Shown one piece after another: positions 1,134 to 63,895 of a stretch of 64,000 bases of DNA. The notes under the pieces are model-generated. The model made no database searches, was not told the origin of the DNA, and worked only from the letters and a program-made list of their open reading frames with translations. How positions within the stretch are numbered: position 1 is the stretch's first letter; each line of letters starts with the position of its first letter. Origin of the DNA: Tridacna crocea (Eukaryota > Mollusca > Bivalvia > Cardiida > Cardiidae); assembly GCA_943736015.1 (NCBI GenBank), contig OX031062.1, forward strand, positions 58,206,962 to 58,270,961. The letters are read 5' to 3'. Both the position numbers and the translations under genes were made by a program.

Positions 1134-1367
1134 ATAAACCTTTCACCACACACTCCCAACGTATAACGACGCAGTATGAAAAGACTTGAAAACATTGTGG
1201 GAAAAGGAGAAAATGCTGGTTACCAGCATTTTCTCCTTTTCCCACAATGTTTTCCTGTCCTATCAACGACGGAAATCATCTATTTCGCAACATTGATTTT
1301 AATATGTCGTCTGCAACCGCTCCGAGTTCGGTCTAGTCCAAAATTTTGTCGTTTGGTAAACAGTTAA
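1134..1367 (+). mobile_element. hp1 TTAA MITE with intact palindrome
   Basis: The left end is TATAAACCTTTCACCACAC (TTAA decayed to ATAA) and the right end is TTGTCGTTTGGTAAACAGTTAA. Between them is a perfect hairpin with stem GTGGGAAAAGGAGAAAATGC and centre GGTTACC at about 1190-1252. The right inner arm keeps GTCGTCTGCAA. Confidence 0.8.
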
Positions 1368-1467
1368 ACTATTTTATCTGCACACACAAAAAAAAGTCGT
1401 TTAATGCCGATCGAGTCAAGAAAAAAAAGTTCAGCCATCTGTTGTCTAGGAAACATGCGGATGAAGG

Positions 1468-1703
1468 TTAACCCTCTCCCAAATAATCCCTGGTTTTTAC
1501 GACCCTGAAAAAGAAGCTTTTTGGAAACATCATGGGAAAAGGAGAAAATGCTGGTAACCAGCATTTTCTCCTTTTCCCACAATGTTTTTTTACCCTCTCA
1601 GAATAAATTTCAGTTTTGAGTCAGCTTAATTTTGTCGTCTGCAAATGCTTTCAATTTGAACCAGTCTAAAGTTTTGTCGTTTGGTAACGAGGCAATCCTT
1701 TAA
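1468..1703 (+). mobile_element. hp1 TTAA MITE, decayed right end
   Basis: TTAACCCTCTCCCAAATAAT opens the copy. The palindrome centre GGTAACC lies near 1557. The inner arm GTCGTCTGCAAATGCTTTC is present, and the right terminus is degenerate (GGTAACGAGGCAATCCTTTAA). Confidence 0.75.
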
Positions 1704-1814
1704 TTCCTGGATACCAAATAAATAACTTGCATTTTCAAACTTTGGGCTACAACTACAGTTTCTGTGCAATATTATATAAGAGAGATCATAATCTAGAACA
1801 AAACGGTTGCAAGT

Positions 1815-1860
1815 TCACGTTCTGTGCAGTCTGATCTTGATCTACACTGTCCACAAAAGG
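1815..1860 (+). repeat. hp2 half-palindrome
   Basis: Contains GTGCAGTCTGATCTTGATCT followed by ACACTGTCC, one arm of the hp2 stem. The other arm is missing. Confidence 0.6.
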
Positions 1861-1992
1861 CTTCTGGTGTCATCCGTGGTATGGAGAGAGATAAACCCTA
1901 GATTAAACTGGATAAATCCAAAAGTAGATATACCAAATATTGTGAGTTGAAAGTTCTTTTCGTCACTCCAAACCTTACTGTATCGGACTATG

Positions 1993-2083
1993 TAAATGCA
2001 AGATTACACTGCACTTTCCGTGCAGTCTGATTTTGATCTACACTGTCCCCAAAAGAGCAAATGAGTCAAGCTTAGCAGCCTAA
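1993..2083 (+). repeat. hp2 element fragment
   Basis: CACTGCAC and GTGCAGTCTGATTTTGATCT form a shortened hp2 hairpin. The typical hp2 right flank (GAGTCAAGCTTAGCAGCCTA, then AAGGGTC) follows. Confidence 0.6.
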
Positions 2084-2428
2084 AGGGTCAACAGCTCAAG
2101 GAATGGTTAGGGTTATGAAGAATGCTGGTGACGAAGTCACATGGTACAGACGTGCGCAAGCTGATCTTTGTCTTGTCAGTTCTCTGAAGACAAGACAGGT
2201 TTCCAATCGGATAATCAGATGTTTTGTTTGAGTTACATAAAATGTAACTTGACAATCAACTACTTTAAAGATATCTTTGTATTTGTATAGATTGTTGAAT
2301 GTATGTACTTTGAGCAGGAGAAAGACCGAAAAAAAGACTTATTGAAATTGTGACAGGGATTATTTAGAATAATTTCAAGGTAATATTTTTTTAACATTTC
2401 TATCTCAACATCTTCCCCCATCCTCACC

Positions 2429-2448
2429 CCCTCTCTCTCTCCCCTTTC

Positions 2449-2491
<43 letters not shown>

Positions 2492-2495
2492 TCTC
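2429..2495. repeat. (CT)n microsatellite
   Basis: An almost pure CT run, interrupted by a few CCTTT steps. On the opposite strand it encodes an Arg/Glu-rich ORF that I regard as spurious. Confidence 0.9.
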
Positions 2496-2679
2496 TCCGA
2501 TTTATTTGGAACACCAATCTTTGAAAGTTGCCTGTCCGCCAGTGTCCGGTATTTCTCATAAGTAAACTTCTCGTACGTAAGTCTTTATTCCCAGTTGAAC
2601 GGATGCTTTTTCTTCTAACTTCTATCTTTTTCAACTTTCGGCCCTTTTTTCTCCCTTGATTCCGAGGAGGACGACATTA

Positions 2680-2815
2680 ATTAACAATATCGTTACAAAA
2701 GGAGAAAATTCCGATGACTGTCATATTTCTCCTTTTCACACAATATTTTCTACTTGTTCATAGACACAGTTCATCATCCAAGTTGCATCTAATGTGTCTT
2801 CTACAAAAAGGCCTT
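2680..2815 (+). mobile_element. hp1 relic
   Basis: Diverged stem halves (AAAAGGAGAAAATTCCGATG and TTTCTCCTTTTCACACAATA) remain, with no recognisable left terminus. Confidence 0.5.
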
Positions 2816-3050
2816 TAACCCATTACCACACAATCCCTACTTTTGACGACCCTGTGAAAGAAACCGTTAGAAAGCATTGTGGGAAAAGGAGAAAATGCTG
2901 GTAACCAGCATTCTCTCCGTTTACCGCAATGTTTTCTACTCTTCACAGAACAAAACTTTAATATCAAATTTTCAGTCACTTCACTTTGGTCGTTTGCAAA
3001 TGCTTTCGATTTAGACAATCCTAAAATATTGTCGTTTGGTAATGAGTTAA
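2815..3050 (+). mobile_element. hp1 TTAA MITE, near complete
   Basis: TTAACCCATTACCACACAATC to TTGTCGTTTGGTAATGAGTTAA. The palindrome centre is GGTAACC. The right stem has two substitutions (TTCTCTCCGTTTACCGC). Confidence 0.85.
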
Positions 3051-3173
3051 TTTGTAAAAGCCTAAAATTCTGTTATCTGGTGAGAAAAACAACAGTTTTT
3101 AAATCCAAATCGTTGCATATCAAGTATTCTTTTCGGCACTACAAACGGAAATATTTTTCAACAGCATAGATAA

Positions 3174-3222
3174 AGATCAGGCTACGAAAACCTGCAGTCT
3201 GATCTTGGATTTACACCGTAAG
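3174..3222. repeat. hp2 short palindrome
   Basis: GATCAGGCTACGAAAACCTG followed by CAGTCTGATCTTGGATTTAC: a diverged hp2 hairpin. Confidence 0.5.
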
Positions 3223-3292
3223 GTCAATCTTATAAGATAAAGTTCCTAGAATTCAGTGGATTGTATATTAAGATCTCGAAAGGTCGAATTTA

Positions 3293-3405
3293 TTAACCCT
3301 GACACTGCCAAGTGCGATTCGCTGACCTTTGGCGGATAGTGCAGATCAAGATCAGACTGCACAGAACGTGCAGTCTGATCTTGATCTACACTTTCCGATG
3401 AGGAG
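3293..3405 (+). mobile_element. hp2 MITE with full central hairpin
   Basis: Opens at TTAACCCTGACACTGCCAAG. The hairpin at 3339-3395 has arms CAGATCAAGATCAGACTGCAC and GTGCAGTCTGATCTTGATCT around AGAAC. The right terminus is not clear. Confidence 0.7.
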
Positions 3406-3504
3406 ATATTTTTCTCAAAAATAAATAAAGGTTTGAAACAGCGTTATTCAGGTTATAACTATCAGCTATAAAGTTTCATTTAACCTTTTACCACACGACA
3501 AAAT

Positions 3505-3734
3505 TTAATTCATTACCAAACGACAATATTTTAGACTGGTCCAAATCGAAAGCATTTACAGACGACAAAATACAAGTGACTGAAAGTTCGAAATTTGATT
3601 TGTGAAGGGTAGAAAACACTGTGGGAAAATGAGAAAATGCTAGTTACCAGCAGTTCTTCTTTTCCTACAATGTTTTCAAAAGGCAATGTCTTCTCAGGGT
3701 CGTCAAAATTAGGGACTGTGTGGTAATGTGTTAA
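3505..3734 (-). mobile_element. hp1 TTAA MITE, first member of duplicated pair
   Basis: TTAATTCATTACCAAACGAC to GGACTGTGTGGTAATGTGTTAA. The stem is mutated (GAAAATGCTAGTTACCAGCA). A stray terminal copy (TTTAACCTTTTACCACACG) sits just upstream at 3479-3500. Confidence 0.75.
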
Positions 3735-3930
3735 GCATTGTCCAAATTGAAAGCATTTGCAGACGACAATTTCAATGTGGATTAAACAGCACAATTTTTG
3801 TTGGAGTAGAAAACATTTCGGGAAAAGAAGAAAGTGCTGGTTACCAACATTCTCTCCTTTTCCTAAAATGTTTTCAGAAGGCTTCTTTCCCAGTGTCGTT
3901 AAAAGTCGTCATTGTGTAGTCAAGGGTTAA
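3731..3930 (-). mobile_element. hp1 MITE lacking its left terminus
   Basis: It abuts the previous copy at a shared TTAA (3731) and enters directly at CATTGTCCAAATTGAAAGC, so about 25 bp of terminus are absent. It ends at TTAA 3927. Confidence 0.7.
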
Positions 3931-3943
3931 CTTATTTGACAAT

Positions 3944-4170
3944 TTAACTCATTACCAAATGACAAAATTTTTTGCTTGTCCAAGTCGAAAGCATTTGCAG
4001 ACGACAAAAAGTGACTGAAAATTCGAAATTTGATTTGTGAAGGGTAGAAAACACTGTGGGAAAAGAAGAAAACGCAAGTTACCAGCCGTTTTTCTCCCTT
4101 TTCCACAATGGTTTCGAATGGCGTCTTTCTTAGCGTCGTCAAAAGTAGGGACTGTGTGGTAATATGTTAA
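3944..4170 (-). mobile_element. hp1 TTAA MITE, second duplicated unit
   Basis: TTAACTCATTACCAAATGAC to TGTGTGGTAATATGTTAA. It shares with 3505-3734 the variants AGTGACTGAAA-TTCGAAATTTGA and an ACACTG stem, showing common descent by duplication. Confidence 0.75.
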
Positions 4171-4365
4171 GCCCTGTCCAAATTGAAAGCATTTGCAGAC
4201 GACAATTTCAGTGTAGCAGTGTAATAAATTTTTGTTGGAGCAAAAAACATTTTGGGAAAAGGAGAAAATGCTGGTTATCAGCATTTTCTCCTTTTTCCAA
4301 TTTTTTTTTCAAACGGCTTCTTTCCCAGTGTCGTTGAAAATCGTCATTGTGTGGTAAAGGGTTAA
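4167..4365 (-). mobile_element. hp1 MITE, second unit, truncated left end
   Basis: It has the same truncated start (CCCTGTCCAAATTGAAAGC) as 3731-3930, and the same TTTTTGTTGGAG linker before the stem. It ends in GGTAAAGGGTTAA. Confidence 0.7.
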
Positions 4366-4405
4366 CTTATTTAACAGTTTAAAGGTTTATCTGATGCTGA
4401 CAGAG

Positions 4406-4590
4406 TAAACCCTCCACTAAACAATAATTCGGCCCAGGTTTGAACGACCATGACATTGAAGCTTTCTGAAACCATACTGGGCGAAGTAGAAAATACCTTC
4501 TCCACAATGTTTCTACCATTTCAACGACAAATTTCTTGAAATTTCTTTACCCAAAATTAAGTGTTAGCCCTAAGTCAAAAATATGAATTT
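4406..4590 (+). mobile_element. hp1 relic
   Basis: AGTAAACCCTCCACTAAACAA begins a decayed left half. The stem is reduced to CCATACTGGGCGAAGTAG and CTTCTCCACAATGTT. Confidence 0.5.
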
Positions 4591-4601
4591 TTATTGAAAG
4601 T

Positions 4602-4832
4602 TTTATCTCTTTACCAAACGACAAAATTTTGGACTGGTCAAGATTGAAAGCACTTGCAGACGACAAGATGAACGTAACTTAAAAATTGAAATTTTCTTCC
4701 AGCAGGGTAGAAAACATTGTGGGAAAAGGAGAAAATGCTGGTAAACAGCATTTTCTCCTTTTCCCACAATGTTTTCAAAGGGCTTTTATCTCAGGGTCGT
4801 AAAAACCAGGAATTGTTTGGTAAAGGGCTGAA
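4602..4832 (-). mobile_element. hp1 TTAA MITE
   Basis: Left TTTATCTCTTTACCAAACGAC (TTAA mutated), hairpin with centre GGTAAAC, right TTGTTTGGTAAAGGGCTGAA. Confidence 0.8.
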
Positions 4833-4930
4833 GCCATTGCATGCGATGAATCAAACATGGCTCATAGAATGTATTTAGATCTATATCTGACATGAAAGAA
4901 AAATATAGAGGTAAAAGTTTTTTTTTTTTT

Positions 4931-5030
4931 AAATACTGGTTACCAGCTTTGTCTCTTTTTCCTCCAGTGTTTTCAATAGGCTTCTTTCTCAGGTACGTTA
5001 AAGTTCGGGAATCTCTGGTAAAGGGTTAAT
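4931..5030 (-). mobile_element. hp1 right half only
   Basis: Starts inside the palindrome (ATACTGGTTACCAGC) just after a T-run and continues to CTGGTAAAGGGTTAA. Confidence 0.6.
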
Positions 5031-5069
5031 AGCCATGATGAAAAGATGGGTACCATGTTTTGAAAGGTA

Positions 5070-5215
5070 GAAATTACAGATAACCAACATTTCCTCCTTT
5101 TCCCACAGTATTTTTTACCCTTTAAAAGACAAATCTCACCATATGAACCAAATAAATTTGTCGTCTGCAAATTCTTTGGATTTGGACAAGTCCAAAAATT
5201 TGTCTTTTGGTAAAA
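5070..5215 (+). mobile_element. hp1 partial copy
   Basis: The stem remnant ACCAACATTTCCTCCTTTTC leads into the arm GTCGTCTGCAAATTCTTTGG and ends at TTGTCTTTTGGTAAA. Confidence 0.6.
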
Positions 5216-5396
5216 TTTTACTCGATATCAACGTAAGTGTGACACATGTATATTGACGATGTCGTTCGGCTATTCATGATAAAACGCACTTAAGAAGCTG
5301 TGTTTTCTACGTCATTTACTCTTTACGAACCGACAAAACGTCAGCCTGACTATACTATACCAAATTCAAATCTCCATAATTATCTAACTTTGAAAG

Positions 5397-5453
5397 TAAC
5401 ACATCTTCTAATTGGCTAAGCCATTCGGTTTAGCCAATCAGAAGTTGTGTTAA
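5397..5453. repeat. Palindrome of the GGCTAAACC family
   Basis: Arms CTTCTAATTGGCTAAGCC and GGTTTAGCCAATCAGAAG. The same hairpin recurs in the TIR MITEs at 46.8 and 47.9 kb. Confidence 0.7.
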
Positions 5454-5525
5454 TTTCAATTCTGGACAAAGCAGCAAGCGCTTGCCAACTACTTCAAAAT
5501 TGCGACTGTCGTCTGCGCTAGACCA

Positions 5526-5806
5526 GTGTTGTGGTATATGACGTTGGATGGACTCACGACTAGATGCCCAGCTAGCTCAGTTGGTAGAGCTGCGGCAGTC
5601 GTGTTCCGGGGGTCGTGGTTCGAGTCCCACGTCGGGCACACTTTTCTGCCTTGATTTACTTCATTGGTGACGAGGATGGGATTGTTGAACGCGGGATGCG
5701 GCACCGACGGTCCATGGGGACTGAAGCGGGAGTTGGTTACTCCCAAAAGTTCAGAAGAGGGAGGAGTGTTGTGATATATAACGCTGGGTGGACTCACGAC
5801 CAGATG
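5526..5806 (+). mobile_element. tRNA-derived SINE flanked by a 41 bp direct repeat
   Basis: At 5566-5638 lies a 73 nt tRNA-like head with perfect box A (TAGCTCAGTTGG) and box B (GGTTCGAGTCC) and paired acceptor ends (GCCCAGC/GTCGGGC, one mismatch). The anticodon stem does not pair, so this is a tRNA-derived Pol III promoter rather than a working tRNA. A 41 bp segment (GTGTTGTGGTATATGACG...) at 5526-5566 recurs at 5766-5806, suggesting that the repeat is a SINE tail and that two units stood in tandem. Confidence 0.55.
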
Positions 5807-6529
5807 TACTATTTTCTCGATTTGCGAATTTTACCATACTTCAGCGTACTTCCTCACATTTTTGCTCAAATTATGGCTAGTTCCGTGGAAATGGCTAGAT
5901 AAAAGACATATGAAGATGTAAATAAACTAAAATATGTACTTTACATCTAGTTTAATCCACTAATAGAACGAGATCAAACAATTTCTGATCAAATGACCCT
6001 TCAAAATTTTAGTGAGTCGCGCTTAGCAGCATAAGGGTTACAATCAAGAAATATCTTTAAAAAAAGATAGACGGCGTAGATTTCCCTGCGAACAAGCAGA
6101 GGCCTTAACCATAAACATTTCTACATTTTTTACCAATCACAAACTTCTATTTATTCATTTGTAATCAGTACCTAGAAGAAGGTCAAAAGTCAGAACATTC
6201 AGCTACGCTGAAAAAAAACTATAGTTGACGCTGAATGTGACTTAATACCCCCGCCAACGTTTTGACAGAAACAGGCAATTATTTGTACACAGATGGATAG
6301 ACGGACGGACTTTCTTAGGAAAGGAATTTGTGGGGGTCGAATTGCTCTTTATTCTATATGCAACCCCACAAGTTCATTTTTTAATCCCACTAAGCCCTAT
6401 CCCTAACCCCATACCTACCAGATGGATGGAATGAACCCCATAGAGACTAAATGTACACTTACCCTAAACTCACAATGTTGGCCTCGTAAGGGCGGACACA
6501 CGGACACACGGACAGACAGGCTGATTCAG
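5807..6529. other. Mostly unassigned DNA
   Basis: Contains an hp2 right-end fragment at 5999-6042 (GTGAGTCGCGCTTAGCAGCA). Otherwise I recognise nothing apart from simple GGAC/GGATGG steps near 6290-6430. Confidence 0.4.
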
Positions 6530-6564
6530 TATACCCCCGAAAACATTCGTTTTGCGGGGGTATA
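6530..6564. repeat. TATACCCCCG palindrome
   Basis: TATACCCCCGAAAA / TTTTGCGGGGGTATA around a 5-6 nt loop, preceded by a GGACACACGGACAGAC-rich stretch. The arrangement is common at ends of dispersed molluscan repeats. Confidence 0.6.
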
Positions 6565-6633
6565 AAGATTGAAGCATTTACATGTGTGAATTTCAGCATC
6601 GAAGAACAAGCCAAAGAAATAGGAACCATTGTT

Positions 6634-6692
6634 ACTTCAAAATCCTCGTAACTACAGCTTGAAACAAGCTGTAGTAACGAGCTTTTGGAAGT
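6634..6692. repeat. 28 bp arm palindrome, first copy
   Basis: ACTTCAAAATCCTCGTAACT runs into CAGCTTG, then AAA, then the complementary arm with a few mismatches. A perfect version lies at 29867-29925. Confidence 0.75.
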
Positions 6693-7228
6693 AAATCGAC
6701 GATATGCTTTTTCCATACCGTGACTGGCTCTATAAAATTCAGTGGCAAAATCCATACGAGAAATTACATAAAACTCTGTCAGCAGTCGGACCCATTGACG
6801 AGGTGGTGCACCGAATATAGACAGGATTGCTAGCGATAGAACAACAGAAGCAGTAATATCCAGGTCATTGGCCCTGTTTTGTTATGTATGTATTCACAGT
6901 TAGAGACAAACAGTAATGGAAAAAATGCAACTGAAAACAGGTTTCTTTGACATGTCAGTGACGCACAACAGCTCGCCTTTTTGGCAAAGAATGACACTTG
7001 GAAGCTCTTGACACTTCCCAGCTGACTGCAATTTACTTGCAGATAAAATAAATATCCAATTCGATATTCCTAATTTACAGCTTAATACAGCGGGCCAACT
7101 GAAAAAAAGGGGGATTGCGGAAATGTCGAACGTTTAACACTTATCCTGCTAAATAACTAAAATTAAATTTTCCTTTCGATAGTAAAAACTCAAATATTGC
7201 TTCTTCGACGTTATGTTTTGCGGAATAC
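6693..7228. other. Unassigned DNA
   Basis: No repeat shared with the rest of the window and no supportable coding segment seen. Confidence 0.4.
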
Positions 7229-7345
7229 TGTCTCCTTATTGGACAGTGTAGATCCAAGATCAGACTGCACTTTTTGTGCAGTCTGCTCTTGATCTACACT
7301 GTCCGCAAAAGGTCAGTGAGCCGCGATCAGCCGCCAATGGGTTAA
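7229..7345 (+). mobile_element. hp2 element, right part complete
   Basis: Hairpin AGATCCAAGATCAGACTGCAC / GTGCAGTCTGCTCTTGATCT, then the typical right flank (GGTCAGTGAGCCGCGATCAG) and a terminal TTAA at 7342. Confidence 0.7.
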
Positions 7346-9445: not shown

Positions 9446-9536
9446 CATCCTCGGATACCCCAGGGTCTCCCTATTTGCTACGCTACATCGTCGATGTAGC
9501 GTAGCAAATAGGGAGACCCCGGGGTATCCGAGGATG
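9446..9536. repeat. 91 bp near-perfect palindrome
   Basis: Two 45 nt arms around a single central T. The left arm starts CATCCTCGGATACCCC and ends GCTACGCTACATCG. The only mismatch is A at 9461 against the pairing partner of G. No other copy is visible in this window. Confidence 0.9.
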
Positions 9537-13009: not shown

Positions 13010-13236
13010 TTAACCCTTTACCACTCTATGACGACTTTCGATATTGAGGTAGATGCCTTCTGAAAACATTGTGGGAAAAGGAGAAAATGCTGGTAACCAG
13101 CATTTTCTCCTTTTCCCACAATGTTTTCTACACTTCACAAGACAAATATCAAATTTTCAGTCTCTTTTATTTTGTCATCTGCAAATGCTTTCAATTTGGA
13201 CAAGGCTGAAATTTGGGTCATGTGGTAAAGGGTTAA
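13010..13236 (+). mobile_element. hp1 TTAA MITE, reference copy
   Basis: 227 bp from TTAACCCTTTACCACTC to ATGTGGTAAAGGGTTAA. The central palindrome 13062-13128 is perfect: two 33 nt arms from GAAAACATTG through GGAGAAAATGCTGGT around one central A. The right arm holds TTTTGTCATCTGCAAATGC and TTTCAATTTGGACAAGGC, the segment most conserved outside the hairpin. The copy has no coding capacity; the ORFs running through it simply translate the repeat. Confidence 0.9.
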
Positions 13237-14872: not shown

Positions 14873-15195
14873 TTAAGCCTTTACTCCATAGACACTCATT
14901 TCTACACATTGGTTGTAGAAGCCTTTGGAAAACATTGTGGCAAAAGGTGAAATTGCTCGTGACGAGCAATTTCACCTTTTGTCACAATGTTTTCTATGCT
15001 ATCAAAAGGTGTCATATACACATAAGAAACGGCTTTATCCTTGCTGCTATTTAGGGTCAATTAGAGATACCATAGAAATGCCACATGCCACAGGAGCCTT
15101 TGGAAAACATTGTGACAAAAGGTGAAATTGCTCGTGATGAGCAATTTCACCTTTTGTCACAATGTTTTCTATGCTATCAAAAGGTAAAGGGTTAA
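14873..15195 (+). mobile_element. hp3 TTAA MITE, double-hairpin composite
   Basis: It begins TTAAGCCTTTACTCCATAG and ends GGTAAAGGGTTAA, but contains two complete hp3 hairpins (about 14930-14990 and 15105-15168). They are joined by one right arm (GGGTCAATTAGAGATACCAT) and a second left arm (CACAGGAGCCTTTGG). Stem GTGACAAAAGGTGAAATTGC, centres CGTGACG and CGTGATG. Confidence 0.85.
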
Positions 15196-18639: not shown

Positions 18640-18970
18640 TCGATATTCTGTGTTGACTTTTTTTACATGTACATTTAACCCTTTACCCCTTAAGGCATTT
18701 CTATGGTATCTCTAATTGACCCTAAATAAGAGCAAGGATAAAGCTGTTTCTTATGTGTATATGACAGCTTTTGATAGGGTAGAAAACATTGTGACAAAAG
18801 GTGAAATTGCTCGTCACGAGCAATTTCACCTTTTGTCACAATGTTTTCCAAAGGCTCCTACAAGCAATGCGTTGAGATGAGTATCTATGGACTAAAGGGT
18901 TAAATTGTAATCTGCAAATGATTTCAATTTTGACAGGTCTAAAATTTCATCGTTTGGTGAAGATTTAATA
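18640..18970 (+). mobile_element. hp1 relic split by an hp3 insertion
   Basis: Left remnant TTTTTTTACATGTACATTTAA. After the hp3 element the sequence resumes TTAAATTGTAATCTGCAAAT and runs to TCGTTTGGTGAAGATTTAA, matching 18286-18362. Confidence 0.65.
18675..18903 (-). mobile_element. hp3 TTAA MITE nested in hp1
   Basis: TTAA at 18675 and 18900. Left end CCCTTTACCCCTTAAGGC, perfect hairpin with centre CGTCACG, right end ATCTATGGACTAAAGGGTTAA. Confidence 0.9.
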
Positions 18971-20542: not shown

Positions 20543-20776
20543 TCAACCCTTTACCAAACGACAATATTCAAGGCTTGTCCAAATCAAAAGCATTTGCAGA
20601 CAAACAAAATAAATAAGACTGAAAATTTGAAACTTTTTTTTTTTATGAAGGGTAGAAAACATTGTGGGAAAAGGAGAAAATGCTGGTTACCAGCATTTTC
20701 TCCTTTTCCCACAATGTTTTCTAAAGGCTTCGTTCTCAGAGGCGTCAAAAGTAGGAATTGTGTGGTAATGGGTTAA
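20543..20776 (-). mobile_element. hp1 MITE inside the satellite
   Basis: TTCAACCCTTTACCAAACGAC to GAATTGTGTGGTAATGGGTTAA. The palindrome is perfect, centre GGTTACC. Confidence 0.85.
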
Positions 20777-23631: not shown

Positions 23632-23996
23632 TTAACCTTTTATTACATGATCCAGACTGTTAATAATCCTGAGGGAGATAAATTTTGGAAAAATTTTCTC
23701 CTCTGAGCCAAGTATTATTTTTTGCCTGCAAATGCCTTAACCCTCAAAGGGCTGGAACCGACTTAACTTGTTTTTGTGTACAGTGTAGATCAAGATCAGA
23801 CTGCACAGAACATGCAGTCTGATCTTAGATCTACACTGTCCACTATTTTGTTACATAATTATTCTGGCAAAGAAAAAACTTGGTACAGCAATATATCAGA
23901 TGATTTTCCTATTTAAAAATGTCTTTTGTTTTAATTCAGCACTTTAAGGGTTAAATTTGGACCAGTTTAAAATTTGGTTGTTTGGTAAAGGATTAA
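23632..23996 (+). mobile_element. hp1 copy carrying an hp2 insertion
   Basis: TTAACCTTTTATTACATGATC to TTGTTTGGTAAAGGATTAA. The stem has decayed (GGAAAAATTTTCTCC). The arm CCTGCAAATGCC is interrupted at TTAA 23737 and resumes ATTTGGACCAGTTTAAAATT at 23954. Confidence 0.75.
23737..23954 (+). mobile_element. hp2 TTAA MITE, full length
   Basis: 218 bp with TTAA on both sides. Terminal repeats CCCTCAAAGGGCTGGAA and, inverted, CCCTTAAAGTGCTGAAT. The central hairpin GTAGATCAAGATCAGACTGC / GCAGTCTGATCTTAGATCTA sits off-centre. This copy defines the boundaries of the family. Confidence 0.85.
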
Positions 23997-29593: not shown

Positions 29594-29866
29594 AGGAACA
29601 TAATTACCTTTTTCCCTGATGATCTGTGTTGCCAAGCTAAAAGTCCAATGTATTTGAGTTTTTTTGTCACTGAAACTGTCAGCCACTTAGATTCAATTCC
29701 CAAGTATACTGTATACACTAAACTGAAGTGTTGATCTTGCACCATATTTTGTTGTCCCAAAGGAATTCGTCTCAAATGGTATATCTGTATCTTTCTTTCT
29801 ACAATCTTCACATACTAGACAGAATAAAAAGTAAGAAAAGGAGGGTCTAAATTATATTGTAGGATT

Positions 29867-29925
29867 ACTTCAAAAACCTCGTAACTACAGCTTGTTTCAA
29901 GCTGTAGTTACGAGGTTTTTGAAGT
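29867..29925. repeat. Perfect 59 bp palindrome, second copy
   Basis: 28 nt arms (ACTTCAAAAACCTCGTAACT...CAGCTTG) around TTT with no mismatch. A diverged relative lies at 6634-6692 with the loop AAA. Confidence 0.9.
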
Positions 29926-29949
29926 AAATTGACGATAAAGGAGAACACT

Positions 29950-39141: not shown

Positions 39142-39360
39142 TTAACCCTTTACTCCATAGATACTCATTTCTAATCATTGCTTGTAGGAAATTTTGGAAA
39201 ACATTGTGGCAAAAGGTGAAATTGCTCATGGCGAGCAATTTCACCTTTTGCCACAATGTTATCTACACTCAGTCAAAAGGTGTAGAAACGGCTTCATCCT
39301 TGCTGTTATTTAGGGTCAATTAGAGATACCATAGAAATTCTTTATGGGGTGAAGTGTTAA
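39142..39360 (+). mobile_element. hp3 TTAA MITE
   Basis: TTAACCCTTTACTCCATAGAT to TTATGGGGTGAAGTGTTAA. The stem uses GTGGCAAAAGG on the left and CCTTTTGCCAC on the right, a matched change in both arms relative to other hp3 copies (GTGACAAAAGG). Confidence 0.9.
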
Positions 39361-39608: not shown

Positions 39609-39831
39609 CTCTTTACCTCACAACAAAATTTTAGACTGGTTCAAATTGAAAGCATTTGCAGATGACAAAATAAATATTACTGAAAATTTGAAATTTTTTC
39701 TGGGAAGGGTAGAAAACACTGGGAAAAGTAGAAAATGCTGGTTACCAGCATTTTCTCCTTTTCCCACAGTCTTTTCAAAAGGCTTCTTTCACAAGGGTGT
39801 CAAAAGTAGGGATTGTGTGGTAATGGGTTAA
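39605..39831 (-). mobile_element. hp1 TTAA MITE
   Basis: TTAACTCTTTACCTCACAAC to GATTGTGTGGTAATGGGTTAA. The left stem lacks GTG at its base (CACTGGGAAAAG). Confidence 0.85.
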
Positions 39832-40056
39832 CTCTTTACCACACAACAAAATTTTAGACTGGTCCAAATTGAAAGCATTTGCAGACGACAAAATAAAGGT
39901 GAATGAAAAATTGAAATTTGTTCTGGGAAGGGTAGAAAACACTGTGGGAAAAGGAGAAAATGCTGGTTACCAGCATTTTCTCCTTTTCCTACAGTGTTTT
40001 CAAAAAGCTTCTTTCTCAGGGGCGTCAAAAGTAGGGATTGTGTGGTAATGGGTTAA
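39828..40056 (-). mobile_element. hp1 TTAA MITE, joined head-to-tail
   Basis: TTAACTCTTTACCACACAAC to GATTGTGTGGTAATGGGTTAA. The stem uses AACACTGTGGG and CCTACAGTGTT, a matched C/G variant of the usual AACATTGTGGG. Confidence 0.9.
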
Positions 40057-41391: not shown

Positions 41392-41605
41392 TTAACTCTT
41401 TACCACACAATCTGAGGGTTTCAACAACCCTGGGGCAGAAGTCTTTTGAAAACATTGTAGGAAAAGGAGAAAATGCTGGTAACCAGCATTTTCTTCTTTT
41501 CCTACAATGTTTTCTACCCTATCACATAATTATAAGACCTATCATTTTAACTACATTCAATATGTCATCAGCTAATGCTTTGAATATGGTCGTCCTGAAT
41601 TTTTG
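41392..41605 (+). mobile_element. hp1 MITE, right end lost
   Basis: TTAACTCTTTACCACACAATC. The stem carries matched changes: GTAGGAAAAGGAG with CTTCTTTTCCTAC. Confidence 0.75.
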
Positions 41606-46727: not shown

Positions 46728-46885
46728 CTTTCTCAAAAACATTCTTAGTCTTATTCTTCAGAATTTCTTAAATGTGAATGTAACAGATCTTCTGATTGGC
46801 TAAACCAAATGGTTTAGCCAATCAGAAGTTCTGTTACATGACAGTCAGGAAATCATGAAGATTAAGAATGTTCTTAAAAATGGTC
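46728..46885. mobile_element. TIR MITE with GGCTAAACC palindrome
   Basis: Outer inverted ends AACATTCTTAGTCTTATTCT / ATTAAGAATGTTCTTA. Central hairpin CTTCTGATTGGCTAAACCA / TGGTTTAGCCAATCAGAAG is perfect. Confidence 0.75.
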
Positions 46886-46942: not shown

Positions 46943-47003
46943 AGTTCAGATCAAGATCAGACTGCAGAAAATTTGCAGTCTGATCTTTGATCTACACTGT
47001 CCA
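46943..47003. repeat. hp2 hairpin
   Basis: CAGATCAAGATCAGACTGCAG / TTGCAGTCTGATCTTTGATC. Confidence 0.75.
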
Positions 47004-47806: not shown

Positions 47807-48002
47807 GGCCCGTATTCACCCACCATTCTTGAGAATATTCTTAGTCTTATTCTCCAACGTTTGCAAAATTTGTAAGTAACACAACTTCTGATTGGCTAAA
47901 CCAAATGTTTTAGCCAATCAGAAATTGTGTTACCTACAAATGTAGAAAATTCTGGAGAATAAGACAAAGAATGTTCTTAAGACTGGTCGATGAATACGGG
48001 CC
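47807..48002. mobile_element. GGCCCGTATTC-type TIR MITE
   Basis: GGCCCGTATTCACCCACCAT and GACTGGTCGATGAATACGGG close the element. Inner inverted blocks TTCTTAGTCTTATTCTCCA / TGGAGAATAAGACAAAGAA. Centre hairpin TTCTGATTGGCTAAACCA / GTTTTAGCCAATCAGAA. Confidence 0.8.
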
Positions 48003-53566: not shown

Positions 53567-53791
53567 CTCATTACCACACAAACCCTACTTTTGACGCCCA
53601 TTAGAAAGAAACCTTTAGAAAACATTGTGGGAAAAGGAGAAAATGCTGGTAACCAGCATTTTCTCCTTTTCCCACAATGTTTTCTACCCTTCACAAAACA
53701 AATTTCAAATTTTCAGTCACTTTTATTTTGTCGTCTGCAAATGCTTTCGATTTGGACAAACCTAATATTTTGTCGTTTGGTAATGAGTTAA
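53563..53791 (+). mobile_element. hp1 TTAA MITE, joined head-to-tail
   Basis: TTAACTCATTACCACACAAAC to TTGTCGTTTGGTAATGAGTTAA; perfect palindrome, centre GGTAACC. One of the best-preserved copies. Confidence 0.9.
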
Positions 53792-56846: not shown

Positions 56847-56928
56847 AGGTCATAATTATCGCCATATTTTCATAGGGTAAAAATGAGATTTACTTTTATT
56901 TTATGAACAGGCCAATTTTTGTTGTGAC

Positions 56929-57156
56929 TTAACTCATTACCAAACGACAAAAATTTAGGCTTGTCCAAATTGAAAGCATTTGCAGACGACAAAATAAAAG
57001 TGACTGAAAATTTGAAATTTGTTTGTGAAGGGTGGAAAACATTGTGGGAAAAGGAGAAAATGCTGGTAACCAGCATTTTCTCCTTTTCCCACAATGTTTT
57101 CAAAAGGCTTCTTTCTCAGGGGCGTCAAAAGTAGGGATTGTGTGATAATGGGTTAA
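56929..57156 (-). mobile_element. hp1 TTAA MITE
   Basis: TTAACTCATTACCAAACGAC to GATTGTGTGATAATGGGTTAA; palindrome perfect, centre GGTAACC. Confidence 0.9.
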
Positions 57157-57446: not shown

Positions 57447-57482
57447 GATGAGTATAAGTAAAAAATTACAGAAAAGAAAGTT

Positions 57483-57575: not shown

Positions 57576-57614
57576 GTATTGAATGTAATATATGTCAAGT
57601 AATGATATCTTTCT

Positions 57615-57690
57615 GATAAATGTAAAAAATATTATGGGAAAAGGAGAAAATACAAACATTTTCTCCCTATCCCACAATGCTTTAGAAAAA
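57615..57690. mobile_element. hp1 stem remnant
   Basis: ATTATGGGAAAAGGAGAAAAT and ATTTTCTCCCTATCCCACAAT with the tip replaced by ACAAAC. Confidence 0.6.
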
Positions 57691-57715
57691 AATGTTATCA
57701 CAATCTTTAACAAAA

Positions 57716-57962
57716 TGTTGCAGCACAACAAAATTTTTGACCATTATCTAGGTTGAAAAAATTCAACTGATTTGATTTCATCAGCTCACATGGCATGTGC
57801 TATGTGAAAAAGTTTAGAAAACATAGAGAAGAAGAAAATGCTGGTTACTTGTATTTTTTTCTTTCCCTACAATGCTTTCAAAAGCATCTTTTGGTCGTTT
57901 GATCTTCTGATTGTGACTATCAAAGACCGGTTAAAAAAGTGATTTGCTTGGCAAAGGGTTAT
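57716..57962 (-). mobile_element. hp1 relic
   Basis: GTTGCAGCACAACAAAATTT; AGAAGAAAATGCTGGTTACT; GGCAAAGGGTTA at the right. Confidence 0.5.
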
Positions 57963-58161
57963 ATTGTTTGTTCATTGCATGCAGCATAGCTGCAATATAT
58001 TCTACTCAACAGTTAGTAAACTGCTTGCCAAAGGCAATCGTTATTTGCCATTGGCTCTAAATTGACAAGATAAAAAGGAGAAGATACTTCATATCTGATT
58101 ATGTCATGGGATGAAACGGGTTGTTTGTGCTATAGTGTCTCTCGAGGTCTTTCGGTGCTTA

Positions 58162-58260
58162 TTAACCCTGAAAGCATTGTCTTTGCAGCCAGTGCAGATA
58201 AAGATCAGACTGCACAAAACGTGCAGTCTGATCTTTGATCTACACTGTCTGCTTTGCATA
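58162..58260 (+). mobile_element. hp2 element, left part complete
   Basis: TTAACCCTGAAAGCATTGTC; hairpin GATAAAGATCAGACTGCAC / GTGCAGTCTGATCTTTGATC. Confidence 0.7.
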
Positions 58261-58318
58261 GAAATTGTTAGCTAAATTTTAACCTTGATATTCCACCTAT
58301 TTGGATCTTATTTCTGGA

Positions 58319-58505
58319 TTGAACTCTTTTATCATACAACCAGAGTTTAGACTTGTCCAAAATAGAAGCATTGATTTGCAGATGACAGAAATACCTTGAC
58401 TCAAAACTGAAAATGGAAAAAATGGGACAAAAAATCATCGTTGGAAGATAACAAAATGTTATTTACCATCATTTCCTCCTTTCACCTCTGTTTTTTAGCT
58501 CTATT
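58319..58505 (-). mobile_element. hp1 relic
   Basis: TTGAACTCTTTTATCATACA; GATTTGCAGATGACAGAAAT; no clear hairpin. Confidence 0.5.
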
Positions 58506-58629
58506 GGCTGTTGCCTTTAAAAAAAAAAATCAACATGATTTCAGTAAGAAAAATCAAATGTATCATAAACTTTTCTGTCATGTGTAAGTATGTGGCAGAA
58601 AGTGCATCAGTGGACTATGTCATGAACCC

Positions 58630-58858
58630 TTACCTCATTACCAAATGACAAAGGTTTAGGCTTGTCGAATTCGAACGCATTTGCAGACGACAAAATAAGA
58701 GTGACTGAAAATTTGAAATTTGTTTTGGGAAAGGTAGAAAACATTGTTGGAAAAGGAGAAAATGCTGGTTACCAGCATTTTCTCCTTTTCCCACAATATT
58801 TTCTAAAGGCTTCTTTCTCAGGGTCGTCAAAAGTAGGGATTGTGTGGTAATGGCTTAA
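58630..58858 (-). mobile_element. hp1 MITE
   Basis: TTACCTCATTACCAAATGAC to GATTGTGTGGTAATGGCTTAA; centre GGTTACC; base TTGTTGGAAAAGG. Confidence 0.85.
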
Positions 58859-59065
58859 CCACACCATCCAGACTTTTAACAAAAAGCCTTTGAAAACATT
58901 TAAGGGAAAGAAGAAAATGCTGGTAACCAGCACTTTCTCCTTTTCCCATCATGTCTTCTACACTTCCCAAATCAAATTTCAATTTTTCAGTAACATTCAT
59001 TTTGTCGTCTGCAAATGCTTTGAATTTGAACCACTCTATAAACTTGTCGTTTGGTGAAGGGTTAA
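58855..59065 (+). mobile_element. hp1 TTAA MITE, joined head-to-tail
   Basis: TTAACCACACCATCCAGAC: the terminus lacks the CCATTA block; stem TAAGGGAAAGAAGAAAATGC; right end GTCGTTTGGTGAAGGGTTAA. Confidence 0.8.
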
Positions 59066-59289
59066 CCCTTTCCCAAACGATAAATTTTAGACTCTTCCAA
59101 ACTCAAAGAGTTTGCAGATGACAATTTCATATTTTATAAAAATGGCAAAAAGTTCCCCAAATGGGTAGAAAACACTGTGGGAAAAGGAGAAATTGCTCGT
59201 TACGAGCAATTTCTCCTTTTCCCACAATGTTTTCAAAAGACTTGTACTGCAGACACGTAAAAACAAGGGCTTGTTTGGGAAAGGGTTAA
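59062..59289 (-). mobile_element. hp4 TTAA MITE, reference copy
   Basis: TTAACCCTTTCCCAAACGAT to TTGTTTGGGAAAGGGTTAA. Hairpin AACACTGTGGGAAAAGGAG..AAATTGCTCGT around T is perfect for the inner 26 nt. The arm CTCTTCCAAACTCAAAGAG, TTTGCAGATGACAATTTC replaces the hp1 GGTCCAAATTGAAAGC. Confidence 0.9.
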
Positions 59290-59344
59290 GTGCCATTCTC
59301 AAGAATCAAATTCTGTAGTATTGTGCACATGTAGAGATGCCTTT

Positions 59345-59474
59345 TCCTCTATACCAAATGATGAATTTTTTTTTGAGACTAAATTGAAAGCATTTGCAGA
59401 TGACAAACAGATATGTCTCATTGGACTTGGTCTGTCTTTGATTGGGAAGAAAAAATTGTGTGGTAAGAGGTTAA
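59345..59474 (-). mobile_element. hp1 MITE without hairpin
   Basis: CTCTATACCAAATGATGAAT, GAAAGCATTTGCAGATGACA, then directly TTGTGTGGTAAGAGGTTAA. Confidence 0.65.
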
Positions 59475-59702
59475 CCCTTTCCCAAACAAGCCCTGGTTTT
59501 CACGCGCCTGCACTACAAGTCTTTTGAAAACACTGTGGGAAAAGGAGAAATTACTCATAACGAGCAATTTCTCCTTTTCCCAACAGTGTTTTCTACCCTT
59601 TAGGAGAACTTTCTACCATTTTCATGAAATTCAAAATTGTTGTCTGCAAACTCTTTCAGATTGGATTAGAGTCTAAAATTTTGTTGTTTGGTAAAGGGTT
59701 GA
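59471..59702 (+). mobile_element. hp4 TTAA MITE, joined head-to-tail
   Basis: TTAACCCTTTCCCAAACAAG to TTTGTTGTTTGGTAAAGGGTTGA; hairpin AGAAATTACTCATAACGAGC has two mismatches. Confidence 0.85.
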
Positions 59703-60193
59703 AGATATAAATGATAAATGTGTCTGAACAAAAATGTTTGGCATACAGGAGGGACTATCACAGTCGATGATTACTTTGGTCAAATGTCGATGTCAGAATA
59801 AAACAATGCTTTCATCATTAAATTTCAAAATTCTTTAGATTCATAGTTATCAGTCACTAAAAAGACTGATTATGAAATTTGTCTTTATGTACACATCAAT
59901 TTCATTACAGAAACCATATTTTAGGTTGCGTTGAACTGTATTGTCAAACTTTGATAGAGCTTTTAAAATTTTATAATATTTCCTTCAAATGTTACCATGG
60001 AAACATTTTTGTCATAATTGCAATTTTTGATGATTTAAAATGATTGATCTTTTGACGTTTTGATTGAGTGTGACATACAGAAGGAATTACATAATCAGTC
60101 ATTGTTTTTTTGACAGTTTATTTTCCTTGCCCTTTTAATACCAAGTGAGTGAAACATTCTCAGTCAGACTTGAAAACATCCAGTTACTTTTAC
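59703..60193. other. Unassigned AT-rich DNA
   Basis: No repeat or gene recognised. Confidence 0.4.
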
Positions 60194-60400
60194 TTCACTC
60201 TTTACCAAATGACAAAATTTTAGACTGGACCAAATTGAAAGCAATCGCTGATGACAAAATTAATGTGACTCAAAAATTGAAATTTGTTCAGGGAGGGTAG
60301 AAATCATTGGATACCAGCATTTTCTCCTTTTCCCATGATGTTTTTAAAAGGCTTCTTTTACAGGGTTGTGAAAATCAGGGATTTTTTAAGAAAAGGTTAA
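60194..60400 (-). mobile_element. hp1 MITE with left stem deleted
   Basis: TTCACTCTTTACCAAATGAC; GGGTAGAAATCATTGGATAC then CAGCATTTTCTCCTTTTCCC; ends AAGAAAAGGTTAA. Confidence 0.8.
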
Positions 60401-60451
60401 GTTTTTATAGTAAGATGATTTAAGAACTGCTTGCAGAGATGGGGATGTCAC

Positions 60452-60581
60452 TTAATTCTTTACCACACAGTCCCGACTTTTAACGAACCTGAGAAAGAAG
60501 TCTTCTGATAACCAGCATTTTCTCCTTATCTCACAATGTTTTCTACCCTTCACGAATTTTTGTTGTTTGGTAAAGAGTTAA
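60452..60581 (+). mobile_element. hp1 internal-deletion derivative, 130 bp
   Basis: TTAATTCTTTACCACACAGTC to TTGTTGTTTGGTAAAGAGTTAA with both ends intact. Missing: the left stem (TCTGATAACCAGCATTTTC) and nearly all the right arm (CTTCACGAATTTTTG). Confidence 0.85.
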
Positions 60582-60609
60582 AAAATGTAGTTTATATGAG
60601 AAACAGTTC

Positions 60610-61280
60610 AAAGAATTCTTGTCAAAAGAAAAATGCTGCAAATCAGAATTTTCTTTTTTCCTCCACAACATTTTTTTTTTTTTTTGATGAGCCAGCTTTC
60701 CATTAGCAAGACATTGTTGTCACAGTGTCACTCTTGTGTGTGTTTTAGTGTTTTCATTTGTCTGTGTGCATTTGTCCAGACCAGAACTACTAGATTGTAT
60801 AGTCGTCCTCGCCGGTACCGTGTCATCTATGATACGGTTTTAATCTGGAAAAATACCTAATTTGCATACATAGCGCCACCTAACCACTGTCAAATCAAAA
60901 GCATCGGCTAAAAAAATAGATGTTTCTTCATCAATGATAAATTACTTTCAATAGTCAAAAATTGCAATAATAAAGCACAATTTTCCTCCACCTTTAAGAA
61001 AAAATTAAACCCCCATCCCCCCACCCTCTTGTCTATAAGTACTTTCAGTGCTTTGATTTTTTTCTTGAAATAATTATAAAGCTGATTAGACAGGACTTAA
61101 TGGACTTTATGTAACCAGCGTTAATAATTTCTGTTCAATCCTATATGAACCGGCCAAGTTTTATCTTTTCTGAGGCCTCTTAATGTGCATGCGCTAGTCT
61201 GTCAGTACTTTCGGTACTTTGATTATTTTTTGGACGAAGCTTAGCCATACTTTTAAAAAAGCGTTATTGAAGCGAGGGCT
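60610..61280. other. Unassigned DNA with an hp1 scrap
   Basis: 60620-60680 has AAAAATGCTGCAAATCAGAA, an hp1 tip remnant, and a T-run. The ORF at 60633-60860 starts in that remnant and is not supported. Confidence 0.4.
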
Positions 61281-61509
61281 TTAACCCATTACCACTCAAT
61301 CCCTACTTTTGACGCCCCTGAGAAAGAAGCCTTTTGAAAACACTGTGGGAAAAGGAGAAAATGCAGGTAACCAGCATTTTCTCCTTTTCCCACAGTGTTT
61401 TCTACCCTTCCCAGAACAAATTTCTATTTTTCGGTCACCTTTTTTTTATCATCTGCAAATGCTTTCAATTTGGACCAGTCCAAAATTTTCTCGTGTGGTA
61501 ATGGGTTAA
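61281..61509 (+). mobile_element. hp1 TTAA MITE
   Basis: TTAACCCATTACCACTCAATC to TCTCGTGTGGTAATGGGTTAA; AACACTGTGGG/CCCACAGTGTT matched variant as at 39828 and 53876. Confidence 0.9.
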
Positions 61510-61619
61510 GGCTTCTGTCTGGCTACATACCTGCAGAAGAACACTTTGTGGTATCATTAGGTCAGAGAAGACGATGCTTAGCAAAATAACCCAGCCAAAC
61601 CCAGTAGTTCAGTATATAA

Positions 61620-61770
61620 CATGCAGGGTTTTAAACAAGGACTCACTGGTCTGTATCCTTAGCATAGCCAATTTCATTTTGAGGATTGATACTAGCCATT
61701 TCTACAGGATTTATTCCTCTCCCAGAGCTAAACATTGTGGTGATGATGTTTATATTGGAAAGCAGTCAGT
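61620..61770 (+). mobile_element. SINE family A piece
   Basis: AGGACTCACTGGTCTGTATC (head), TTTGAGGATTGATACTAGCC, CTACAGGATTTATTCCTCTC, ATTGGAAAGCAGTCAGTCAG, where it stops. Confidence 0.6.
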
Positions 61771-62036
61771 CAGCTTGCCCGGGTTGCTAAGTGGTGAGCA
61801 TGTTGGACTCATGACCTGGTGGTTTTGAGTTTGATACGTGGTTGAGGCAAACTTTATTTCTGGTGTATTTTTGCCTCTCACCTCTGCTGAAGCATATGAG
61901 AAAAGTAGTCAGTGGCTTTGGAAAGAAAGTTGTGTTAGTACTGGTGTGAGAAAGCCGGGAAACACAATGTGTGTCACTGACCGCCATGATATGACCTTAG
62001 CTATTAAAGTGGCATTAAGCCCCAGTACAACATGGA
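61771..62036 (+). mobile_element. SINE family B
   Basis: Head TGCCCGGGTTGCTAAGTGG, GAGTTTGATACGTGG; body GGCAAACTTTATTTCTGGTG, GAGAAAAGTAGTCAGTGGCT, GTGTGAGAAAGCCGGGAAAC; tail GGCATTAAGCCCCAGTACAA. Inserted beside or into the family A piece. Confidence 0.8.
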
Positions 62037-62314
62037 AAGCTTTGGAAGAATATTGTGTAAATTACCATTATTTGGCCAATGTATTTGGACAGAAAAAACT
62101 ATTATTTCTTTTTAGTGTCCAGATCTTCAGGAATTTATAATTTTGAAAAATGGGAGGAGGAGGGGTGGCCAAAAAAAATGATATTACTTTGATGTCTGAA
62201 TATGTGTCCGAAATTAAATAAGGAATATGCGACAAATTTTGATCTATTGTTGCACCGTTCATAGCATGGGGTCATAAGCATAGCAGATCTACAGTTTTGC
62301 ATTGTTTTCAACCT

Positions 62315-62594
62315 TTAACGCATTACCACACAATCCCTACTTTTGACGCCCCTGAGAAAGAAGCATTTAGCGCATTACCACATATTCCCACTTTTGACGC
62401 CCCTGAGAAAGAAGCCTTTAGAAAACATTGTTGGAAAAGGAGAAAATGCTGGTAACCAGCATTTTCTCCTTTTCCCACAATGTTTTCTAACCTTCACAAA
62501 ACAAATTTCAATTTTTCAGTCACTTTTATTTTGTCATCTGCAAATGCTTTCGATTTGGACAAGTCTAAAATTCTGACGTTTGGTAATGAGTTAA
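62315..62594 (+). mobile_element. hp1 TTAA MITE with duplicated left end
   Basis: TTAACGCATTACCACACAATC..GAGAAAGAAGCATTTAGCG is followed by a second GCATTACCACATATTCCC..GAGAAAGAAGCC before the hairpin. Hairpin intact except TTGTTGGAAAAG; right end TGACGTTTGGTAATGAGTTAA. Confidence 0.9.
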
Positions 62595-62604
62595 GTACTT
62601 GATT

Positions 62605-62715
62605 TATGGTACTAGTGGAAGAAACTCGGGAAAGCGTGGATAGGTGTACTTGCCAGCCAGATATAACATGAATTAATATTGAAAATGGCATCAAGCTTAC
62701 TACAAACAAACAAAT
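62605..62715 (+). mobile_element. SINE family A, 3' fragment
   Basis: GGTACTAGTGGAAGAAACTC, AAAGCGTGGATAGGTGTACT, GAAAATGGCATCAAGCTTAC, tail ACAAACAAACAAA. Confidence 0.65.
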
Positions 62716-62820
62716 TGTTAAGAAAAATGAAACAAGTGCCTGTATCTCCACGATGTAATATGTAGAGGAGAGGGCTATAATCTGGATTATTAATTTGATG
62801 CATAGTTCAGTTGTCAAGCT

Positions 62821-63050
62821 TTAACCCTTTACTCCACAGATACTCATTTCTACACATTGCTTGTAGGAGCCTTTGGAAAACATTGTTGCAAAAGGCGAAA
62901 TAGCTCGTCACGAGCAATTACACCTTTTGCCACAATGTTTTTTATGCTATCAAAAGGTGTCATTTACACATAAGAAACAGCTTCATCCTTGCTGTTATTT
63001 AGGGTCAATTAGGGATACCATAGGAATGCCTTATGGGGGTAAAGGGTTAA
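62821..63050 (+). mobile_element. hp3 TTAA MITE
   Basis: TTAACCCTTTACTCCACAGAT to GGGGTAAAGGGTTAA; stem TGTTGCAAAAGGCGAAATAGCTCGT with three mismatches. Confidence 0.85.
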
Positions 63051-63059
63051 TCTATAAAT

Positions 63060-63275
63060 CTATTATTAATCCTTCTCTTTACCTGCAAGAGGGAAGCCTT
63101 TTGAAAACATTGAGGGAAAAAGAGTAAATGCTGGTTATGAGCATTTTCTCCTTTTCCCAAAGTATTTTCTATTCTTCCTAAAGCAAATATTATAATTTGA
63201 ACCAGATTTAATTTGTTTTATCTGTCTAATGTTTGCAGTTTTGACTAGTGTAAAATTGTGCGCTTTGGGATAATG
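63060..63275 (+). mobile_element. hp1 MITE, diverged ends
   Basis: ATTATTAATCCTTCTCTTTACC; stem GAGGGAAAAAGAGTAAATGC; right end TGCGCTTTGGGATAATG. Confidence 0.65.
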
Positions 63276-63483
63276 TTCATCTGTATCTTTGTTTTAAGAC
63301 CTTTGACATTTTAGATACCGGTTGTCTAGCTCATTTGACCTGGCAAATTATTGTACAAAACCATTGCAAAGATATGATTCTTTTTTCAATATTTTTCGGG
63401 CTAAGTTTGATCATATGTCTTAGAATATTTCATTATGGATAAATCATAAGTCTTTAATGCACAATGCAGAGTTTTAACAACCA

Positions 63484-63679
63484 TTAACCCTTTATCAGAT
63501 GACAAAATTTTAGCCCTTTTGAAATTGAAAGCATTTGCAGCAGCAATTTCAATGTGGCTCAAAAGATGCAACTGTTTATTGATAGGATAGAAAATATCAT
63601 GGGAAAGCAGCTTCTGCCTCAGGGTCAGTAAAAGTTGGGATTGTGTGGTAAAGAGTTAAATGTGTGGTAAAGAGTTAAA
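63484..63679 (-). mobile_element. hp1 MITE, hairpin deleted, right end duplicated
   Basis: TTAACCCTTTATCAGATGAC; ATATCATGGGAAAGCAGCTTC skips the palindrome; the terminal TGTGTGGTAAAGAGTTAAA occurs twice in direct tandem (63641, 63661). Confidence 0.8.
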
Positions 63680-63710
63680 TCATGACTCTTTAAAAATTTT
63701 TGCAAGAAAT

Positions 63711-63895
63711 TTAACTTTCTACCACCTGACAAAAAATTATAGACTCATCCATTAACTAACAGCATTTGCAGACTACTAAATGGGTGTGACTCAAAGATCA
63801 AACTTGATCTTTCAAAGGGAAGAAGGCATTGTGGAAAAGGGAGAAAATGCTTCTTACCAGCATTGTCTCTTCTTTCCCCCCCTCCCTCCAGTTTT
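63711..63895 (-). mobile_element. hp1 MITE, right end lost
   Basis: TTAACTTTCTACCACCTGAC; GCATTTGCAGACTACTAAAT; stem GAGAAAATGCTTCTTACCAG with a C-rich right arm. Confidence 0.65.

Follow-up and report, generated by a model that had tools for sequence, protein, structure and literature searches.

How can a palindrome keep pairing with itself while its sequence changes? The question is raised by a 64,000-nucleotide stretch of the genome of the bivalve Tridacna crocea (assembly GCA_943736015.1, contig OX031062.1, positions 58,206,962 to 58,270,961; hereafter the window), lying on contig 7 of a 1.049-Gb assembly of 31 contigs. The window is crowded with TTAA-flanked, piggyBac-type miniature inverted-repeat transposable elements (MITEs) of about 229 bp, whose hairpin is a 67-base palindrome, its two 33-base arms separated by a single central base. 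A preliminary description, made from the letters alone, observed that the stems of several families of these elements differ and yet stay complementary, and proposed arm-to-arm conversion or cruciform repair, selection related to transposase or small RNA, or recent amplification from several masters. We lean slightly towards a non-autonomous piggyBac-type superfamily that has been amplified from many sources, with the palindrome constrained in those source copies.

The MITE is real and very abundant, ordinary in its class and unusual in its palindrome. The window holds 78 strong palindromes, 65 of which are, by our own count, the 67-base MITE hairpin. Counted by distance from a stem consensus, 74 hairpins have 18 mismatches or fewer; under this latter criterion a letter-shuffled and a reversed version of the window each contained none. 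Twenty stretches of 10 kb, at fixed places on 17 contigs, held 95 hairpins, and these 200 kb therefore extrapolate to about 500,000 hairpins genome-wide. Matches to a profile of the commonest stem type, type A, cover 35% of the window and 17% of the 200 kb sampled elsewhere. Perfect 35-base cores number 174,607 for type A and 14,604 for type B in genome-wide forward counts; the reversed core patterns of both types occur nowhere in the genome, and the stem pattern had no match in the viral contigs searched. The element starts with TTAACCC(T/A)TTACCA and closes with a shorter inverted match followed by TTAA; read inwards, the consensus of this second end is TTAACTC(T/A)TTACCA, with strict CCC at one end only. 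Among the 137 near-full-length copies, taken from 660 profile matches, TTAA is kept at the 5' end in 97, at the 3' end in 88 and at both in 67, where chance would give TTAA at a given place about 1% of the time. The TTAA flanks and the CC[C/T]T-type inverted ends place the element among the piggyBac/TTAA MITEs.

The hairpin stems fall into types A, B and C, of which 140, 12 and 9 copies were sampled. The sampled type-A stems, all with at most 14 mismatches, come from the window, from 20 10-kb stretches chosen arbitrarily and from 10 transposase loci; the cut-off leaves decayed stems under-represented. Numbering the pairs from 0 (outermost) to 32 (innermost), all positions of the A and B consensus stems are paired, and C has one unpaired position, the polymorphic pair 7. 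Most of the stem is common to the three types; four pairs set B apart from A, each altered in both arms, and two pairs besides pair 7 set C apart from A. By eye, the linkers on the right-hand side can scarcely be aligned between A and B. Because the consensus stems are palindromic and differ at matched pairs, the reported paired changes between families are correct. Matched changes between types or subfamilies lie at pairs 7, 13, 20, 25 and 31, and those in our genome-wide counts at pairs 19, 27 and 28.

Perfect complementarity, which had also been claimed, holds for the A and B consensus but not for that of C, nor for most single copies: all 33 pairs are intact in 15 of the 140 type-A stems, and at least one pair is broken in the other 125. 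Single changes predominate in these stems (587), against 42 matched Watson-Crick doubles and 20 doubles of other kinds, where independence would predict 37 doubles in all; slid controls gave 1.07 to 1.3 times their own expectation. Sixteen of the 42 matched doubles represent one subfamily site, a T:A to C:G change at pair 7, and the C:G pair tracks linker markers of that subfamily (linker identity 0.78 against 0.717 in random sets, p 0.005). Rare stem variants, with at most four carriers in the 137 copies, comprise 271 unpaired and 6 paired events. Palindromic consensus stems in families whose single copies carry mostly unmatched changes, together with a commonest matched change that marks a linker subfamily, favour constraint in the source copies. 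Since the spreading lineages are matched and most of the sampled resident copies are broken, we infer that matched changes are mainly inherited and not repaired in place.

Individual copies in the window illustrate this. Four matched changes that had been singled out within families are all present, but each of these stems also has at least one unmatched change. GTGGC/GCCAC, in the element first recorded at 39142, belongs to a type-B hairpin (39197-39263) with unmatched changes at the centre and the outer end; GTGGC is the type-B consensus in our sample, so this change is not private. GTAGG/CCTAC lies in a type-A hairpin at 41448-41514, and AACACTG/CAGTGTT in two full-length type-A elements, at 39828-40056 on the reverse strand (hairpin 39935-40001) and at 61281-61511 on the forward strand (hairpin 61336-61402); each of these three hairpins has one mismatched pair. 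Clean hairpins beside drifted linkers do occur as described, for example the type-A hairpin at 1188-1254, which has perfect 33-bp arms between divergent linkers.

Divergence from the consensus averages about 0.07 for the stem, against 0.17 for the linkers; within family 1 (137 copies) it is 0.06-0.08 in the stem, 0.14-0.22 in the linkers and 0.11-0.14 at the ends. In a pairwise test with split linker sites, one part used for binning and the other for measuring, the stem/linker ratio was 0.59 (95% interval 0.46-0.73) for copy pairs of the nearest bin; the middle bin gave 0.42 and the furthest 0.49. Rare variants per site had medians of 4 in the stem and 7 in the linkers for transitions, and of 2 and 4 for transversions. 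At all depths reached, the stem is about twice as conserved as the linkers, the nearest bin still lying at a linker divergence of 0.116 and the rare variants, from 137 of about 500,000 copies, not all being recent. The idea that stem and linkers of close copies decay equally, to which an unsplit ratio of 0.75 (0.51-1.02) in the nearest bin had pointed, was dropped because of the lower split-site ratio and because rare stem variants are about half as numerous per site as those of linkers; the unsplit value is biased, since the same linker sites served both to bin the pairs and to measure them. The preliminary description would have given way to equal stem and linker divergence combined with unpaired changes as frequent as paired ones. 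The first half of this is not borne out, the divergences being unequal, with split-site ratios of 0.42-0.59. The second half is, as unmatched stem changes outnumber matched ones by far.

The reduced divergence of the stem, seen in near pairs too, would also fit restoration of one arm from the other. In recurrent template switching (quasi-palindrome correction), the nascent strand would copy one arm onto the other and turn mismatches into pairs, or back, without selection; this mechanism has been described as a source of compensatory pairs in RNA genes (PMC8794818). Genome-wide pattern counts bear on this account. Against the baseline of 174,607 perfect type-A cores (N0), and with all other core letters required to be intact, single changes at pair 19 number 6,395 (G to A on one arm) and 6,358 (C to T on the other), those at pair 27 2,696 and 2,598 (the same two changes), and those at pair 28 1,896 (C to T, left) and 1,966 (G to A, right). 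Matched doubles exceed the expectation under independence 9.5-fold at pair 19 (2,206 against 232.9), 3.1-fold at pair 27 (126 against 40.1) and 4.4-fold at pair 28 (94 against 21.3). Unmatched controls combining pairs 27 and 28 gave 74 and 67 copies (ratios 2.5 and 2.3), and those combining pairs 19 and 27 gave 136 and 135 (1.4 and 1.4). Differences in copy age raise all doubles, and the matched ones are raised more. As the controls differ, with 1.4 for distant and 2.3-2.5 for adjacent sites, the excess over them is best stated as a range: about 3.7-6.9-fold at pair 19, 1.7-3.2-fold at pair 28 and a weak 1.2-2.3-fold at pair 27. Of these three sites, the one that lies furthest from the loop shows the largest excess, which would be in line with fold-back priming; however, the excess varies several-fold among them, and at pair 27 the 126 copies seen compare with about 97 expected at the adjacent-site ratio of 2.4.

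The linkers of matched copies indicate whether such changes arose once or repeatedly. For pair 27 we took the first places listed on contigs 1-4, with one skipped (18 of 20 usable), and for pair 19 the first places listed on contig 1 only (19 of 20 usable). Linker identity among copies matched at pair 27 is 0.631, against 0.717 in random copies and 0.644 (0.629-0.662) in age-matched ones, and the nearest neighbour belongs to the class once, with 2.03 expected, among the 18 loci; among copies matched at pair 19 it is 0.693, against 0.698 in age-matched copies. Linkers no more alike than those of age-matched copies make one or a few sources unlikely for both classes, and matched changes set in unrelated linkers would fit many independent compensated lineages as well as recurrent template switching. 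Copies matched at pair 27 are also richer in other matched outer-stem changes (7 matched and 31 unmatched, against 7 and 250 in random copies; Fisher p 0.0006), and those matched at pair 19 have 3 and 26 (p 0.07). The outer stem of the pair-27 copies is fairly clean (0.068) for linkers that diverge by 0.157 at low-polymorphism sites and 0.343 at high-polymorphism ones. This pattern would fit many long-diverged lineages that each keep a matched palindrome, and template switching with tracts would fit it too; as these copies have the most divergent linkers, deep lineages would look the same as switching. In two of them (L055 and L058) the left-arm A run is one base shorter, and in L055 the right-arm T run is shortened as well, so that an indel, too, may be matched there.

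The 271 unpaired and 6 paired rare variants, together with the broken state of most sampled stems, indicate that new pairs are rarely made in resident copies, and we regard template switching as a rather unlikely explanation of the stems. The broader proposition, that some 500,000 palindromes record arm-from-arm copying that is recurrent, independent and commoner far from the loop, and that this alone keeps the element palindromic in the long term, also seems doubtful to us. Conversion as the main process, one of the mechanisms suggested at the outset, is thus unsupported, and the best fit is given by several sources whose palindrome is constrained; conversion may make a smaller contribution, because matched doubles exceed the unmatched controls at all three sites tested.

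A dimeric DNA-binding protein offers another route to a palindrome, with the arms as half-sites of the same motif and pairing as a by-product. The cysteine-rich domains of piggyBac and piggyBat act in pairs, binding as dimers to a palindrome in the transposon end (PMC11707139). The four transposase frames that we read from this genome have, by eye, a Cys/His-rich C-terminus, and the inner pairs of the stem vary less than the outer ones on the whole. Matched changes are nevertheless spread along the arm, with 2,206 copies at pair 19, which a fixed motif would not favour, and 67 bp exceeds the published sites; we consider this explanation improbable.

That the stems are kept by selection acting on small or hairpin RNAs from resident copies is more improbable still. 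MITE-derived microRNAs are known, and the stem fold, computed as DNA, is very stable, with -37.2 kcal/mol (z -14.45) for the perfect type-A hairpin at 13062-13128 as a single strand. Against this stand the 125 type-A stems with broken pairs and the hundreds of thousands of copies. An origin of the arms from the terminal repeats was also considered and was not borne out (12 tests, lowest uncorrected p 0.027).

The genome encodes candidate partners for such an element. The piggyBac transposase domain has 118 matches, a number of them full-length and uninterrupted, and some copies with open frames are more than 99% identical at separate places, which suggests recent piggyBac activity; their ends, TTAACCC...GGGTTAA, are inverted over 16-17 bp. 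Groups of piggyBac copies with open frames are 98-99.9% identical (L026, L029, L031 and L035; L025, L027, L028 and L030; L033 and L034). Four further loci with a piggyBac gene (L037-L040) are 99.5-99.9% identical over 4.1 kb including nested MITEs, and look as if they belonged to a larger duplicated segment. We fetched 20 of the 118 loci, inspected the ends in 9 and could set both ends in 8. These autonomous elements share TTAACCC with the MITE and then diverge from its ends after 9-11 bases, and hairpins near the 8 elements lie outside the element boundaries. The proposed piggyBac link fits the TTAA ends, the CCC-type termini and the intact transposases, but an element with the same ends was not found among those examined.

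In the explanation that we favour, constraint in source copies, the palindrome would help the element to transpose in cis, probably as a palindromic site read by the transposase or a host factor, or as a mobility-raising cruciform or hairpin. Few copies whose stem is broken would turn into sources, and a stem change would become numerous only where it is matched in both arms of a copy that goes on to spread. The open-frame piggyBac transposases, their Cys/His-rich C-termini and the palindrome binding known from piggyBac and piggyBat also speak for this view. Several results weigh against it. No autonomous element with the MITE's ends or hairpin was found among the 9 of 20 fetched transposase loci whose ends were inspected, and the palindrome, besides being central, exceeds in length those published as transposase-bound. 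Resident stems decaying as fast as linkers were not borne out by the split-site and rare-variant tests; outer-stem divergence (0.045) does equal that of low-polymorphism linker sites (0.049), partly by construction because those sites were picked for low divergence. The class matched at pair 19, with its 2,206 copies, lacks a shared linker background (nearest neighbour in class 3, expected 2.25, for 19 copies), and outside pair 7 matched doubles in distant copy pairs are barely above chance. On balance, the matched changes look mainly like a reflection of which copies spread, with a surplus of independent matched changes remaining.

The remaining copies in the window span perfect to decayed stems. 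A further full-length type-A element, at 56928-57156 on the reverse strand, has a perfect hairpin (57035-57101), and the type-A hairpins at 20653-20723 and 53616-53686 have perfect arms of 35 bp. Among type-B hairpins, the one at 18782-18848 is perfect, that at 14928-14994 has one mismatched pair and lies next to a second copy, by eye truncated, with a type-B hairpin at 15103-15169, and that at 62877-62941 is decayed, with four mismatched pairs. The type-C hairpin at 59168-59234 has CACTG in its left arm, TTGCTCG at its centre and one mismatched pair.

Palindromes of other kinds share the window. One at 9446-9536 covers 91 bases and is near-perfect, its 45-bp arms having one mismatch. A second, short family, AAGATCAGACTGCA...TGCAGTCTGATCTT, lies at 3333-3397, 23792-23826, 46953-46987 and 58200-58236; a third, around CTTCTGATTGGCTAAACCA and with variants, at 5390-5459, 46778-46839 and 47844-47965; and a fourth, TTACTTCAAAAACCTCGTAACTACAGCTTG, at 6632-6694 and 29865-29927, with one copy perfect over 30 bp. 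At 5565-5639, ARAGORN reports a tRNA-like sequence with an undefined anticodon.

Among known elements, piggyBac/TTAA MITEs in general are alike in their TTAA flanks, short body and short inverted ends; unlike them, the ends here match the examined autonomous elements over the first 9-11 bases only. Bacterial REPINs are likewise very numerous, short, palindromic mobile sequences, but are not known to have TTAA ends. None of the top-ranked matches in the open-licence literature described a piggyBac MITE whose centre is a long palindrome. The closest known kind is the CMITEs of the coral Acropora, which form several families with TTAA target sites and CCC-type ends that differ between families; as here, the internal region varies less from family to family than the ends do, and the authors suggest that it aids transposition (PMC2872659). 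One of six coral piggyBac elements shares its ends with a CMITE family in that account. The CMITEs differ in size and number, being about 100 bp long with some 1,600 copies estimated, against about 229 bp and the 500,000 copies extrapolated here, and the published 60-bp CMITE consensus has a best stem of 5 bp where the conserved region here is a 67-bp palindrome. Compared with the internal sequence of our MITE, that consensus showed borderline similarity on one strand (score 12, shuffle p 0.028) and none on the other (p 0.98); by this measure the two do not share an internal sequence.

The conservation of the internal region between coral MITE families was called a mystery by its describers (PMC2872659); in the Tridacna element, the corresponding region is a perfect palindrome. 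Its copy number allows single base pairs to be counted genome-wide. Direct tests come within reach for two questions: whether MITEs owe their success to internal palindromes, and how often a palindrome is rewritten from one of its arms in a natural genome.

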